Shown piece by piece: positions 1-6,098 of a stretch of 64,000 nucleotides of DNA. The stretch is taken from contig CAIMEY010000002.1 of assembly GCA_903840165.1 (NCBI GenBank), forward strand, positions 197,109 to 261,108. The letters run 5' to 3'. Position 1 is the first letter of the stretch, and each line of letters starts with the position of its first letter. The DNA is from an uncultured Myxococcales bacterium. Lineage in GTDB: Bacteria > Myxococcota_A > UBA9042. The notes below the pieces were generated by a model. The model worked only from the letters and a program-made list of their open reading frames with translations. It was not told the DNA's origin and did no database searches. A program made the translations under genes and the position numbers.

Positions 1-2460
1 GTCACCAATGCCGGCGGCTTTCACTGGATCACGGAAATGCTCGGTGAGTTCGGGCATTTGCCTGCCATCGCCAGCTACGCGATTTTGGGACTCGAGGCTG
101 TCGTTCAAGGATTGGCCTTTGCCCTTGGCCTAGCGCTGTGGCGCTGGCTGGTCCAGCGGGGTGCGCCGGTTGCGTTGGCGGCGATGCTCGCTATGTGGGC
201 GGGAGAAGCTTGTATTCCTATGCTTTTCCCGTGGTTCTTGGGCAATGCGATTTCGCGCGAGTTGCCGATGATCCAACTGGCCGACCTCGGCGGCGTCCAC
301 CTAGTGTCTGCGCAACTCTATGCTGCGAATGCTGTTTTGGCCGACCTCATCAGCGCTCCCTTGGGCAAAAGGCAGCCCGGCTGGTGGATGGCGCTGATCA
401 CGGCTGTGGGTATCGCTTTGTCCTATGGCTATGGGCAGTTGCGCATCGCCGATATCGATGGTCAGCAGGCCGCCGCGCCCAAGCTCAAGATCGGCATGGT
501 CGAGGGCAATGTGGGCATCTGGGAAAAGGAAGCCAAGCACCTGCCTCCGGAAGAGCGCGCGCAGATGCTGGCGCATAACCTTTTGAAACATCAGCAGATG
601 ACTGCCCAATTGCAGGCCCAGGGGGCCCAGTTGGTGGTCTGGCCGGAGAGCGCCTTTCAGCCGCCCGGGCCTTTGCCGGTGGTGACCAGCGACGACCACG
701 TAGTGGCCATCGGTGAACAGGGCGCGGTCTGGCGGCATGACGGCCTCAAGCTGCAGAGCGGACGCAGTGATCGATTGGGATTGCCCTTGAAATTAGCGTC
801 GTTGACGGGGCTATCTAGTCCCCGCGGCGACCTCTGGCGGTGGATTGAAGGCGATCACCGCGTCTGGACAATTTCCAGCCGAGGCGCCCAGTCCATCGAC
901 CTGCCCGAGGGCGAAACCGCGATTGCCACTGCGAGTCCACCGGCCGACCCGTGGGGAGGCATTCCTCCTGGCTATGTGGTGGGGCGCGGCGGGCGAGTTT
1001 GGCGTTTAGAATTCGCTGGTTTTGCGACGTCGGCCGATACGGGCAAGCTGCTGCCCAACCATACACCCCAACTCGCTGAAGTGCCGCAGGATCGCCCGGC
1101 CATCGATGTGACCGCAGCTGCCGTCAATGGCAGCGGGGCCTTGGTGGTCACTGGCCGGCAGGGACGCGTGTTGTCGCTGGTCCAAGGGCGCATGCAGCCT
1201 GTGCAATCTGGGACAACGGCGGACCTCTGGGCGGCCGCGGGAGATCCCCTAGGGCTCAACTTGGTGCTGGCTGGCGCTCACGGCACGGTGCTGATGGGGG
1301 ATGGCCGAGTCTTTTTCCAGAGTTTGCCGACCGACGTCGACCTGTACGCCGCCTGGTTTGCGCCAGACGGAACCGCCTGGGTTGCCGGGCAGCGCGGTGT
1401 CATTTTGCAGCGTTTGCCCGGTAAAGCGTGGGCAAAGATTGCGGGTTTGCCGCCCGTCGACGTCATGGCTGGTGCCTGCGATGCCGACGGCAACTTACTG
1501 GTGGCAGGCCGAGGCGGGCGCTTTTTCTGGCGCGCCCAAGGACATACAGATTTCGCAGAGTTGCCCTCTGGTCAGCGCGGCGAAGTGACGGCCTTGCTCG
1601 GGGTGCAAGCCTTGCCGAGCTACTACCTGCCACGGCTGGCGCGGCGAATCGTGCCTGCCCAAGCCCCGTTGCCAGATGCCAAATTGTCTTATCCTGCCGA
1701 TGCCTTGGCCGATGCTGGCGTGCCCGAGATGGACCGAGCGACACCGCGCCGAGGCTTCACCGTTCCGCTGCTCTTTGGCGCCATGAGCCACGGCGGGCCT
1801 TTGCCCATGCGCAGCGCCGACTGCATGGACTGCTATAACAGCGCAGTTCTCTTGGGTTCTGACGGTCAGGTTCAAGACCTTTACGACAAGACTTTCCTGC
1901 TCATGTTCGGCGAGTACCTGCCCTTTGGTGAACAGTTCCCGTCCCTGTACGAGCTTTCGCCAGAAACCGGGCATTTTCAACCGGGTACGCGCACAACGCC
2001 GGTGATTCTCGGTCCGGCGCGCATTGGGATCCTGGTCTGCTACGAGGACCTCTTGCCGAACTATGCGAGACGTGTTGCGGCGCATAACCCTAATGTTTTC
2101 ATAAATATGACCAACGACGCATGGTTCGGTCAGACCGCAGAACCGGAGCATCACCTCAACCTAGCTCTGATGCGCACTGTTGAGTACCGCCGCTGGCTGC
2201 TGCGTTCGACAAATACTGGAATTTCTGTGTTTATTGACGCCGCCGGCCGACGCGTCCAGGAGACCTCGCTGCAAGGGGCTGAGACGCTGATTCGCGACGT
2301 GCCCCTGATGGAATCCCGCACAGTGTATGCGCAATTGGGCGATTGGCCCTTGGGCGTTCTCGGCGCTGGACTGTTGCTGTTGGTGGCGATGGGGCAGGGC
2401 GGAGCGCGGTCCGGCAAGAGCAAACGCAAACGTCAGGCCAAGGCTGCTGCTGCGGCTTAA
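1..2460 (+). CDS. lnt: Apolipoprotein N-acyltransferase (Lnt) with internal beta-propeller-like insert, 5' end outside window
   Basis: The reading frame is open from base 1, so the N-terminus lies upstream; 819 residues are visible. Lnt transfers a third acyl chain to the N-terminal Cys of lipoproteins in the inner membrane, which fits the many lipobox proteins in this window. Membrane segments come first, then the nitrilase-like (C-N hydrolase) domain. The likely catalytic triad is Glu in WPESAF (codon 646-648), Lys in LYDKTF (1888-1890) and Cys in LVCYED (2038-2040). After the NDAWFG motif a C-terminal membrane helix and a Lys/Arg-rich tail follow. Between the Glu and Lys parts, about nt 685-1610, lie some 300 residues foreign to Lnt, with repeated short blocks such as VAGQRG, VVGRGGRV and VAGRGGRF that look like beta-propeller blades. 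Typical Lnt has about 500 residues. The family call is firm; the propeller reading is inference. Confidence 0.9.
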   Translation, partial: VTNAGGFHWITEMLGEFGHLPAIASYAILGLEAVVQGLAFALGLALWRWLVQRGAPVALAAMLAMWAGEACIPMLFPWFLGNAISRELPMIQLADLGGVHLVSAQLYAANAVLADLISAPLGKRQPGWWMALITAVGIALSYGYGQLRIADIDGQQAAAPKLKIGMVEGNVGIWEKEAKHLPPEERAQMLAHNLLKHQQMTAQLQAQGAQLVVWPESAFQPPGPLPVVTSDDHVVAIGEQGAVWRHDGLKLQSGRSDRLGLPLKLASLTGLSSPRGDLWRWIEGDHRVWTISSRGAQSIDLPEGETAIATASPPADPWGGIPPGYVVGRGGRVWRLEFAGFATSADTGKLLPNHTPQLAEVPQDRPAIDVTAAAVNGSGALVVTGRQGRVLSLVQGRMQPVQSGTTADLWAAAGDPLGLNLVLAGAHGTVLMGDGRVFFQSLPTDVDLYAAWFAPDGTAWVAGQRGVILQRLPGKAWAKIAGLPPVDVMAGACDADGNLLVAGRGGRFFWRAQGHTDFAELPSGQRGEVTALLGVQALPSYYLPRLARRIVPAQAPLPDAKLSYPADALADAGVPEMDRATPRRGFTVPLLFGAMSHGGPLPMRSADCMDCYNSAVLLGSDGQVQDLYDKTFLLMFGEYLPFGEQFPSLYELSPETGHFQPGTRTTPVILGPARIGILVCYEDLLPNYARRVAAHNPNVFINMTNDAWFGQTAEPEHHLNLALMRTVEYRRWLLRSTNTGISVFIDAAGRRVQETSLQGAETLIRDVPLMESRTVYAQLGDWPLGVLGAGLLLLVAMGQGGARSGKSKRKRQAKAAAAA

Positions 2461-2485: not shown

Positions 2486-2650
2486 TCAGGGCTTGGTTGC
2501 GGCCGGTTGGTCGTGCAGTTCTTGCGCTTTTTGCCTCGACTTGCGGTGGCGGTAGGCGCGCCAGCCCGTGTAGGCGCGGTGCAGGAACAGCAAAGTCCCC
2601 GCGACTGCAAAGATTTTGCCCATTCCGAAATCGGCACCAGCTGGCATCAT
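2486..2650 (-). CDS. Small hypothetical single-span membrane protein (54 aa)
   Basis: The ATG overlaps the TGA of the upstream amidotransferase gene (ATGA arrangement at 2647-2650), which suggests translational coupling. The product starts MMPAGADFG, has one hydrophobic stretch around residues 11-28 (IFAVAGTLLFLHRAYTGW), and ends in a basic, polar tail (RHRKSRQK). I do not recognise a family. The coupling and the helix-plus-basic-tail layout support a real gene. It ends 25 bp from the convergent lnt stop. Confidence 0.45.
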   Translation of the reverse strand: MMPAGADFGMGKIFAVAGTLLFLHRAYTGWRAYRHRKSRQKAQELHDQPAATKP

Positions 2651-3288
2651 TGGCTCCCAGGCGAAGAAGTCGCCATCCAATCAAGGACGTTCGCCAGCAA
2701 ATGCAAGCCGCTAGGCGTGCCAATGCTCTCTGGATGGAACTGAACACCGCGCAACCCCGGCCCACGCAACGCCATCGGCAGCGGCGGATCCTGCTCCTGT
2801 GGGAGCCAAGCGGTCAGCGAAAGGTTCGCGGGTAAGGTTGCCGGGTCGATCTGCAGACTGTGGTAGCGCATAACCGCCAAAGGATTGGGTAATTGCGCGA
2901 AGATGTCCAGGCCGTCATGGGCGATCGCACTGACCTTGCCGTGGCACGGGACCGTCGCCCGAACCACTTGGGCACCGCGGACGTGGGCCAACACCTGCAT
3001 ACCCAGACAGACGCCAAAAATCGGTGTTGTTCCTGCTAGTTGCTCGACAACCAGCTGACTGGCCAGCGCCTCCTGGGGACCCAAAGGACCGGGCGACAAG
3101 ACTACGCCCTGCCAAGGCCTGCGCAGCTGGGCCTGCACCAGTTCCAGATCGCTACGAACAACGGTTAGCTGGACGTCGTGGCCGCGTTGGCGCCCCGCCT
3201 GCTCCAGCGCGTCAACGAGGTTCCAGGCAAAGCTGTCGTAGCAGTCAACAAGAAGAATCTGTAGTGAACTCAATGATGAACCGCGCAA
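2647..3288 (-). CDS. Glutamine amidotransferase, anthranilate/aminodeoxychorismate synthase component II
   Basis: Class I glutamine amidotransferase subunit of 213 aa, the usual TrpG/PabA size. It supplies ammonia from glutamine to a chorismate-using synthase, giving anthranilate (tryptophan) or 4-amino-4-deoxychorismate (folate). Visible motifs are LLVDCYDSFAWN at the N-terminus, LSPGP (oxyanion strand), GVCLGMQ with the nucleophilic Cys, and FHPES with the catalytic His and Glu. No component I gene is in the window, so trpG and pabA cannot be told apart. The start is a TTG at 3288 or 3273, with no clear ribosome binding site. The upstream lipoprotein gene ends only a few bases before it on the same strand. 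Confidence 0.85.
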   Translation of the reverse strand: MRGSSLSSLQILLVDCYDSFAWNLVDALEQAGRQRGHDVQLTVVRSDLELVQAQLRRPWQGVVLSPGPLGPQEALASQLVVEQLAGTTPIFGVCLGMQVLAHVRGAQVVRATVPCHGKVSAIAHDGLDIFAQLPNPLAVMRYHSLQIDPATLPANLSLTAWLPQEQDPPLPMALRGPGLRGVQFHPESIGTPSGLHLLANVLDWMATSSPGSQ

Positions 3289-3291
3289 CGG

Positions 3292-5604
3292 CTAGGGGAC
3301 GGGATAGATGTGCAGCGTGCCCCAGGTGTCCACCGTGGTGGCGTTGGCGGCCTGTTGAGGCGGCAAGAACTGATTGGAAATCGAGCTTCCGTCCTTATTG
3401 ACGATCACTGCGACGTATTTGACCGTAGCGCCGCCAGCCGGCAGGCCTTTGGGAAAGAGCTGGGTCAAAAGAATCGAAAATTCAAGAGATTGCTTGTCTA
3501 CCGCAGGAGCCACTGTGCCAACGGTCCAGGCAAAGTCATTGACATTGCTTAGCCCTCGCCAGCCGGCGTCTGTGGATAGGGCTAGGTTTGTGCCCGTGAA
3601 ACCGGCCATGCCCAGGGACCCTGCGGCGAAATCAATGCCAATTTGGCCATCTGCCACGAGCAGGCCGTTGGCGATCGCGTCGTCAAGGTTGCCGGTATTG
3701 TCTTTGAGATCGGATGGTTGCTTAGCGCCCGTGCCGCTGCCGTAGTCGATGTCCAGGTAGATCACCACTGCATTTGACGCTTCAACCGTGCCAACGATGC
3801 CAAAATACAATGAATCTTTGTCCCAAGCTGCGTACAACTGATCTAGTTGATTCTTGCCTACACCCCAGCCGGTGGGTGTGGCCTGAACACTGGCCAAGGA
3901 CCAAGGGTTCCAATCCGCCGCCTGACCGACTGCACCGTCGATGACGGGTGTGTCAAAAGGCTCGACATCCAGCGCATTTTTTAGCGTCATCGCTGCTCCC
4001 ACAGGCGGTGTGACCACGACGTCGGCGGGCAGCGGCGGCAGCCCGGGCGTGGTCGCTAGCAAGCCAGTACCATTGGCCACAACTGTAGTCGCATCAAAGG
4101 TTTTTCCTTGAAATTGCGAGACAAAGTGCACGCCAAAGCTCCCGAGCAAGTTGGCCCCCAGCAACTGCACGGCCCCGCCCTTGGCCGGGACCCAGGCGGG
4201 CTGAACGGCGGTCAAGGTCGGCTGCGTCGCCTTGTCGACGATGGTCAATGTCGTGAATTGATTCGCTTGTAGGCCATTGTCGGACCCGTCAGCGTCCCCA
4301 TAGACGGTCTGCCCCTGCCACGTCGCCCGCGCCACCACGGCATAGGTGCCAATGGCCAGAACGGGCAGGGTGGCGGACCAGGTTTCCTGGCCTTTCTGCA
4401 CGTCTTCACTGGTAAAACTGGCCGGAACGAAGGTCCACGCTGCCGGATTCTTCACAGGGTCACTGCCCACGGGACCATATGCAACGTCGACCTGCAAACC
4501 GGGCGTCGCTCCAGGCAATTCGGAGACGCTTTGTACCTGCGCCAGGACAGACACGGTCACGCCGTCCTTATTATTTCCGCCCAACTGCATCTGGGGTAAC
4601 TGCACGGAAGGTTTGGGCATAACTTGGAAATAGAAGCCGCCGCTCAGCGTTGCCGTCGTGGCGTCGGGGTTCTTCGCCACCACATCGACTAGGCCGGCGT
4701 CATGGGCGGGCGTGGTGCAGATGACTTGCAGGCCATCGGCGGACACCTTGGCTGCGGTTGCTGCTTTGTCGCCAAAGATCACAGTAGTTCCATTGACAAA
4801 GCCGGTCCCTGTGAGGACCACCTGATCACCGCCACTAGTCCATCCCTTGGCGGGGTCTACCGCTGTGATGGCCAAAGGTAGCTGATTCTTTACACATTGC
4901 CCGGCCTTGCACGACTCGTCGGCGGCGCAGGCTGGATTGCACGGCGTTGGCACACATTGGCCGGCCTGGCAAACCTGTCCATCGCCGCAGGCCGGGGTGC
5001 AATCGACTGTCTTTGCAACGCATTGTCCGGCCGTGCACACCTGGTCGGCGTTGCACGGTGGGTCACAACTCGCCGCGCTGGCTGCCGGCACGACGACAGC
5101 CGTATTGAGGAATTTCCCTTTGGAATCTTTGCTCAAGATGACCTGCGCCGAGACCCAGGCTCCGGCTAACCCCGTGGCAGTCGCCGCGCCAACACCGTCC
5201 TGATACGCCTGCGTCGCAGCCTTGTACTCCTGGCCATTCTCAGGCAAATCATCGCCTTGGGTCGCCACGAAGATGAACTGCACTTCGTCGCCCGCGTTGA
5301 GCAGTCCATCGTGCTTGCCTTTGGCCACGGACTGCACGTAGGTCAGGATGCCGTCTCCCGCCGCCTCGTCGCCATTTTGGCCATTGTCTAGCAATTGCAC
5401 AGGAGTCCACTGGTTCATCGTCCCTTTGGCGAAGAAGTTGAAGCCATCGCCGGCCCAGCTAGCGAAGGCGGTATTGAGCTGCTTGCGATCAAGGGTCAGT
5501 TTGATGTCGATGGTGCCGAACTGTTTAAGTGTCATTCCAGGTACTTTGAGCGTCCCCGAGGTGCCTTTGGCGATCTTGATGAGGCCATTGGCCCCGACCC
5601 ACAT
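3292..5604 (-). CDS. C-terminal part of a frameshifted TIG-domain surface protein
   Basis: 770 residues without an export signal of their own. The frame continues upstream of the first ATG to a stop at 5746-5748, and the missing N-terminus, a lipoprotein leader, lies in another frame immediately upstream. In order: a domain with NGDEAAGDG of the choice-of-anchor type (about 40-120); three Cys-rich repeats of the form C-PAC-x-GQVC-x-AGQCV (about 180-235); an IPT/TIG immunoglobulin-like domain (about 240-330); a middle domain; a second TIG-like domain (about 460-540); and a C-terminal domain with LYAAWDKDSLYFGI, like the CBM9/DOMON-type sandwiches. Together with the upstream piece it would form an extracellular lipoprotein of about 930 aa, of unknown binding target. 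Confidence 0.7.
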   Translation of the reverse strand: MWVGANGLIKIAKGTSGTLKVPGMTLKQFGTIDIKLTLDRKQLNTAFASWAGDGFNFFAKGTMNQWTPVQLLDNGQNGDEAAGDGILTYVQSVAKGKHDGLLNAGDEVQFIFVATQGDDLPENGQEYKAATQAYQDGVGAATATGLAGAWVSAQVILSKDSKGKFLNTAVVVPAASAASCDPPCNADQVCTAGQCVAKTVDCTPACGDGQVCQAGQCVPTPCNPACAADESCKAGQCVKNQLPLAITAVDPAKGWTSGGDQVVLTGTGFVNGTTVIFGDKAATAAKVSADGLQVICTTPAHDAGLVDVVAKNPDATTATLSGGFYFQVMPKPSVQLPQMQLGGNNKDGVTVSVLAQVQSVSELPGATPGLQVDVAYGPVGSDPVKNPAAWTFVPASFTSEDVQKGQETWSATLPVLAIGTYAVVARATWQGQTVYGDADGSDNGLQANQFTTLTIVDKATQPTLTAVQPAWVPAKGGAVQLLGANLLGSFGVHFVSQFQGKTFDATTVVANGTGLLATTPGLPPLPADVVVTPPVGAAMTLKNALDVEPFDTPVIDGAVGQAADWNPWSLASVQATPTGWGVGKNQLDQLYAAWDKDSLYFGIVGTVEASNAVVIYLDIDYGSGTGAKQPSDLKDNTGNLDDAIANGLLVADGQIGIDFAAGSLGMAGFTGTNLALSTDAGWRGLSNVNDFAWTVGTVAPAVDKQSLEFSILLTQLFPKGLPAGGATVKYVAVIVNKDGSSISNQFLPPQQAANATTVDTWGTLHIYPVP

Positions 5605-5699
5605 CCAGTTGCTGTACTCATTGAGGGCGCCGTATTCCAGTGTGGCGTCCTGCTTGGAAGTATCGAAAAAGACTTTGGTCGTCAGGATATGATCGCCTG

Positions 5700-6098
5700 C
5701 TACGCCGTCGTCCTGCTCGTGGCCGCCCTGCTGATCGGGCCGTCGTCATAGAGGACCGGGTAAGGGCCGTCGCTGGGTAGCCAACTGGTTGCATAAGTAA
5801 TGGAATTGGTCTTTGCATCCCAGGAAAAAGAGCCTGTCCACTGGATGTCGCCGTCGCCAAAGGTCTTGTTGGCGCTGTCGTCGACAGCAAAGGTCAGCCA
5901 TACCCCGCCGGGTGTGTCGCTCGTTTCGCTAGAGTTGGTCGAATCAGCATCTGACCCTTTGCTATCATTGACGAAAATCGGCCCTGTGTCGGTTGACGCC
6001 TTGGCGTCGGTCGCCGTAGTTGTCGCGGTAGAACCGCAGCCGCTGAGCCCAAGGGTAACTGCTGTCAAGATGCTGAAATTGCGAAGCATTACATGCAT
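5700..6098 (-). CDS. N-terminal part of the frameshifted lipoprotein (signal peptide and lipobox)
   Basis: 132 residues starting MHVMLRNFS, with a hydrophobic core and the lipobox LSGCG, then a Thr/Ser/Asp-rich linker and the start of a beta-rich domain (VWLTFAVDDS). The sequence reads sensibly up to YDDGP near 5740 and then changes into low-complexity residues before the stop. Inserting one base near 5740 joins it to the downstream frame, which continues DQQGGHEQDDGVAGDHI. The split is therefore a one-base frameshift: a sequencing or assembly error, a true mutation or programmed shifting. Other starts are ATG 6089 and GTG 6107. No clear ribosome binding site is seen. Confidence 0.65.
   Translation of the reverse strand: MHVMLRNFSILTAVTLGLSGCGSTATTTATDAKASTDTGPIFVNDSKGSDADSTNSSETSDTPGGVWLTFAVDDSANKTFGDGDIQWTGSFSWDAKTNSITYATSWLPSDGPYPVLYDDGPISRAATSRTTA

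Follow-up and report, generated by a model that had tools for sequence, protein, structure and literature searches.

A seven-bladed beta-propeller predicted within the catalytic domain of a second apolipoprotein N-acyltransferase in a class of Myxococcota

Introduction

Cys387 of the E. coli apolipoprotein N-acyltransferase (Lnt) is surrounded by a funnel of nine loops, one of which, arm 5, leads to helix alpha2 in the upper half of the sandwich (PMC5500888, PMC10313180). The peptide part of the lipoprotein leaves at the top of the pocket through an opening that arms 3 and 7 form, and these two arms and arm 5 are members of one ring of loops (PMC10313180, PMC5500888). The enzyme has been described as promiscuous with respect to the lipoproteins it acylates (PMC10313180).

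The window analyzed here, a stretch of 64,000 nucleotides from a metagenome bin of 123 contigs, encodes an Lnt that shares its domains, its Glu/Lys/Cys triad and its fold (TM up to 0.82 over the models of two homologues) with the enzymes of E. coli and P. aeruginosa (5n6h, 5n6m, 8b0p), but at an identity of about 25% to E. coli Lnt this long form adds a 320-residue propeller and a longer linker between Glu and Lys. The propeller has the fold, the seven blades and the AVGxxGxxxR turn motif of Ycf48/HCF136 and WD40-type propellers (2xbg, 2ymu, 7bid; E-values 5e-31 to 1e-10); however, Ycf48 is a separate protein, whereas here the propeller is a domain within a membrane enzyme, and only fold and motif are held in common. 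Propeller-less myxobacterial Lnt paralogues of the type of L191, L201, L204 and L212 belong to the same DKxYLLxFGE subfamily by tree and motif, with 38-47% identity to the window protein over the Lnt columns, but they lack the propeller and have only 55-133 residues between Glu and Lys. In mycobacteria and corynebacteria, Lnt is tied to a second domain or partner (Lnt/Ppm1), the partner being a separate or end-fused enzyme; PMC3850990 and PMC3460810 deal with these systems. In contrast to these arrangements, the propeller is an insertion inside the catalytic domain. In the papers searched we found neither an Lnt with a propeller nor a nitrilase with an inserted one, in agreement with the first-pass annotation, to which no described Lnt with such an insert was known, and Lnt of Myxococcota was absent from these papers except for one preprint on another subject. 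We regard the propeller Lnt as a known enzyme in a new variant form.

Results

A complete Lnt interrupted after the catalytic Glu

Positions 1-2460 of the window, on the + strand like all features of the protein given below, form a single open frame that represents the 3' 93% of the lnt gene (819 of 877 codons) and scores above the TIGR00546 cut-off. On the whole contig the frame measures 895 amino acids from stop to stop, and its ATG lies at L023:9827, 174 bases 5' of the window. The membrane domain, without its first helices, covers residues 1-160 (1-480; Pfam LNT_N and helices in the model) and is followed by the first part of the nitrilase-like domain, residues 161-221 (481-663; model strands E161-167 and E211-213). 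The second part of that domain, residues 589-770, lies at 1765-2310 (Pfam CN_hydrolase, matches to Lnt in the PDB), so that LNT_N and CN_hydrolase are found on either side of the insert. Likewise, the NCBIfam model TIGR00546 'lnt' reached 225 bits (cut-off 133) in two stretches flanking it.

The catalytic Glu (646-648), Lys (1888-1890) and Cys (2038-2040) align with E. coli Glu267, Lys335 and Cys387, respectively, and as Glu216, Lys630 and Cys680 they are invariant in an alignment of 44 relatives, which bears out the earlier observation that all three are present in one frame. Glu and Lys are 413 residues apart in the window protein, versus 67 in E. coli Lnt and 81 in the second Lnt of the same genome. 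Together with the triad, the residues corresponding to E. coli Asn314, Glu343, Trp415, His425, Gly447, Tyr388 and Glu389 are kept in 43 of 43 long forms, while Trp237 is shifted in the alignment. Of these residues, Glu343, Tyr388, Glu389 and His425 have a known or proposed importance beside the triad. The other surrounding residues that we compared with the E. coli enzyme agree as well except on arms 3 and 7, and Pro353, Phe358 and Met362 at the tip of arm 3 are different. By sequence and structure prediction the window protein is shown to be a full Lnt with membrane domain, nitrilase-like domain and intact Glu/Lys/Cys triad, and we infer that it would carry out normal N-acyl transfer.

The insert is a predicted seven-bladed propeller

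The inserted propeller comprises about 320 residues, which the AlphaFold2 model places at 222-541 (664-1623); an insert profile, Foldseek and the model of a homologue also identify it as a propeller. The first-pass annotation had placed a propeller-like insert at 640-1640, residues 217-525, which was nearly correct and differs somewhat from these modelled limits, and had listed six blade-like blocks where the model gives seven blades. According to the predicted structure, blades 2 to 7 lie at 802-900, 919-1080 (blade 3, with a long loop), 1108-1203, 1225-1323, 1342-1437 and 1462-1563. On our reading of the strand lists, the closing blade appears to combine a single strand contributed by the C-terminal end of the insert with three contributed by the N-terminal end: strands B-D at 700-762 follow from the strand order of the model, their assignment to this blade being ours, and strand A at 1585-1602 would close the ring in a 1+3 manner, the same pattern being seen in the model of L182. 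Since both ends of the propeller fall in one blade, the domain would be attached to the catalytic domain by two adjacent strands, making its gain or loss as a whole unit possible.

AlphaFold2 yielded a mean pLDDT of 90.3 and a pTM of 0.90 for the window protein, and a pLDDT of 90.6 and a pTM of 0.89 for L182, a homologue of full length that belongs to a different family in the class; the two proteins are about 30% identical to each other, and both models combine an Lnt fold with seven four-stranded blades in the insert. In Foldseek comparisons (target-normalized TM), the Lnt part scored 0.68 to 8b0p for the window protein and 0.82 to 5n6h for L182, and the insert scored 0.74 and 0.81, respectively, to the seven-bladed propeller 7bid. 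A single-sequence Pfam scan with the window insert alone matched no family, showing that a profile was needed, and of 38 members scanned with Pfam, three matched PSII_BNR and three matched WD40. A profile built from 38 relatives and searched against the PDB retrieved WD40-repeat proteins and designed propellers with a best E-value of 5e-31, Ycf48 at 6e-11, and also tectonin, so that the blade-like motifs noticed at first are real rather than due to chance. Models, Foldseek and profile matches agree on a propeller fold inserted within the nitrilase-like domain directly after the Glu, which confirms the structural part of the first-pass annotation, and homology to Lnt supports its proposed location on the periplasmic side. 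The insert is thus shown by sequence and structure prediction to be a seven-bladed WD40/Ycf48-type propeller in the loop after the catalytic Glu. Because the insertion starts about six residues past this Glu and ahead of the segment containing alpha2 in the E. coli enzyme, it is placed in arm 5, and the propeller would accordingly sit at the mouth of the funnel, at the position of arm 5 of the E. coli enzyme (PMC5500888).

The architecture is shared by a class of Myxococcota

Within a single GTDB class of Myxococcota, 41 genomes encode the propeller Lnt on one contig each. The insert was found in 20 of the 22 genomes of the window's GTDB family, 19 times on one contig and in G002 over two contigs. 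Among the other 30 genomes of the class, 22 carry the propeller Lnt whole on one contig, it appears split or cut at contig ends in four (G025, G029, G038 and G046), the propeller of G050 is shortened, only the propeller-less form occurs in G024 and G047, and G041 gave no match to a propeller Lnt. Outside the class (about 230 of the 284 Myxococcota genomes searched), no match spanned insert and flanks; these genomes match flank 310-425 only or the propeller repeats only. In public records the same loci are assigned to uncultured Myxococcales or Deltaproteobacteria bins, mostly aquatic. Two bins labelled Klebsiella pneumoniae and Anaeromyxobacter dehalogenans (L148, CAMDBH010000023.1, and L173, DYKK01000037.1) also carry the propeller Lnt of the class, and these labels look wrong.

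An assembly or binning fusion of two genes, for which we found no sign beyond the origin of the sequence from a metagenome bin, is next to impossible: the same junctions recur in 41 genomes that differ in source (various lakes and seas) and in assembler, and the insert is free of stops. As these 41 genomes were binned independently and each has the architecture on one contig, a fusion of lnt and a propeller gene by assembly was ruled out for the class.

A second Lnt and propeller-less relatives

Most genomes of the class also encode a short Lnt that lacks the insert, keeps the triad intact and has 64-82 residues from Glu to Lys. The long form is about 25% identical to E. coli Lnt and 33% identical to the short copy that accompanies it in the genome, and the short copy is 25.5% identical to the E. 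coli enzyme. A tree of 119 Lnts, with a weakly supported backbone, groups the long forms with Lnts of other Myxococcota that lack a propeller and separates them from the short forms. The short copy L143 (G031:C156) has CSD in place of the usual CYE around the catalytic Cys and is possibly degenerate, and L147 (G022:C108), a third Lnt-like protein, is very divergent and sits on a long branch.

Three propeller-less proteins fall inside the propeller group or next to it: L104 (G024:C35), which falls with family f7 in the tree (support 0.95), L114 (G044:C18), the sister of the propeller form of G044 itself (support 1.0), and L252 (G047:C138), which resembles L114 by eye. In all three, a short stretch links the same flanks, WPE[ST]xY and PR...S..PLP...RGF, the latter belonging to the linker PR...S..PLP...DR...RGF that follows the propeller in the window protein (1624-1764) and is common to propeller-less relatives. 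We read these proteins as losses of the whole propeller domain, and such clean loss in a few close relatives makes the propeller look separable from catalysis. The same linker is shared by L191, L193, L201 and L205, propeller-less proteins from outside the class, which suggests that the insertion site may be a loop that predates the propeller.

The propeller is retained yet changes quickly

The propeller is the most variable part of the protein, with 40% identity within the family as compared to 72% for the second half of the nitrilase-like domain, and 18% as compared to 48% outside the family. In seven of eight pairs of near relatives, in several of which synonymous sites were near saturation, dN/dS was 0.09-0.24 for the propeller versus 0.02-0.08 for the nitrilase-like domain; the single pair with the reverse order was L175/L181. 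These values place the propeller under purifying selection and, together with its low identity, indicate a domain that is retained yet fast-changing. Such variability is as expected for a recognition surface; alternatively, quick evolution can reflect weak constraint.

Gene neighborhood and lipoprotein machinery

Immediately 5' of the window's lnt lies a gene for a small predicted lipoprotein without Pfam match (L023:9285-9830). Such a gene is found directly upstream of lnt in 17 loci of the window's family (homologues in L148-L167), and where the start is clear the two genes mostly overlap by four bases (ATGA), which makes the small lipoprotein a candidate substrate or partner of the propeller Lnt. 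However, in other families (L182, L168, L185) the long lnt is preceded by a DUF167 (YggU) gene or a YegS-type diacylglycerol kinase gene, and the small lipoprotein can therefore not explain the propeller as a whole. Since the upstream gene varies between families, the neighborhood was dropped as a clue to function. Downstream of lnt the window encodes a large IPT/TIG-domain protein (3292-5748, - strand) and, beside it, a TrpG-like glutamine amidotransferase (2647-3288, - strand).

The genome of the window contains two Lgt genes (G000:C119:75561-76379 and G000:C30:210265-211173), one of which adjoins the sole LspA gene, and one LolA match. A simple lipobox rule flagged 8 of 48 ORFs in the window, some of them doubtful and including false positives, a share that we judge not unusual for a Gram-negative bacterium. 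By this rough count, the suggestion that many nearby lipoproteins give a reason for special handling is weak.

Discussion

We propose that the propeller, plugged into the loop assigned to arm 5 in a full Lnt, would serve as a periplasmic docking platform beside the substrate funnel that gives this paralogue its own substrates or partner, so that the propeller copy and the insert-free Lnt encoded alongside it would have different tasks. Of the explanations considered this is the most likely, and we regard it as about evenly balanced; the propeller-less forms in G024 and G047 and the second copy in G044 count against a docking role, as they indicate that the propeller is not always needed. A more specific version, in which the two Lnts divide the labor and the propeller form picks a subset of lipoproteins, or a partner bringing them, such that N-acylation becomes a selective sorting step and not the promiscuous one of E. 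coli, is possible if somewhat doubtful; the first-pass annotation had likewise suggested that the propeller could sort or present lipoprotein substrates.

That G024, G047 and one G044 copy of the two have lost the propeller cleanly, and that the propeller of G050 is partial, would also be accounted for if the propeller were a structural or stabilizing ornament, or a relic, with no part in substrate choice, the Lnts differing in some other way. The low propeller identity across families fits this explanation too, and Ycf48-like propellers are frequent in the genomes of the class, so that raw material was at hand. However, retention of the propeller on one contig in 41 genomes across the class and a dN/dS well below 1 argue against this, and we consider an ornament rather unlikely. 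Propellers are common binders of proteins and sugars, and the domain might instead anchor or position the enzyme by binding peptidoglycan, polysaccharide or an envelope machine, such as LolCDE or a secretion system, instead of the lipoprotein substrate. Both this general property and the profile matches to Ycf48, an assembly-factor propeller, and to tectonin would be in line with such an anchor, but we saw no conserved neighbor gene belonging to a machine of this kind, and what lies upstream varies among an orphan lipoprotein gene, DUF167 and a lipid kinase of the YegS type, which leaves this explanation distinctly improbable. Finally, the low identity of the long form to E. coli Lnt and to the short copy could mean that the long protein has ceased to produce triacylated lipoproteins, being inactive or N-acylating something else, and that the short copy is the true Lnt. 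This is very improbable, since every catalytic residue tested is kept, the TIGR00546 equivalog score is above the cut-off, and the short copy is equally distant from the E. coli enzyme.

To return to the proposed docking platform, the propeller-less sisters of nearly the same enzyme provide ready-made natural controls, and G044, which has both forms as sister copies, amounts to a natural deletion experiment. Moreover, the propeller marks a position, a few residues past the catalytic Glu, at which the nitrilase-like domain accepts an insertion of 320 residues; this is useful for engineering and for understanding substrate entry. That a second Lnt with a protein-binding fold near the funnel occurs throughout the class suggests that the last step of lipidation may be selective in some bacteria.
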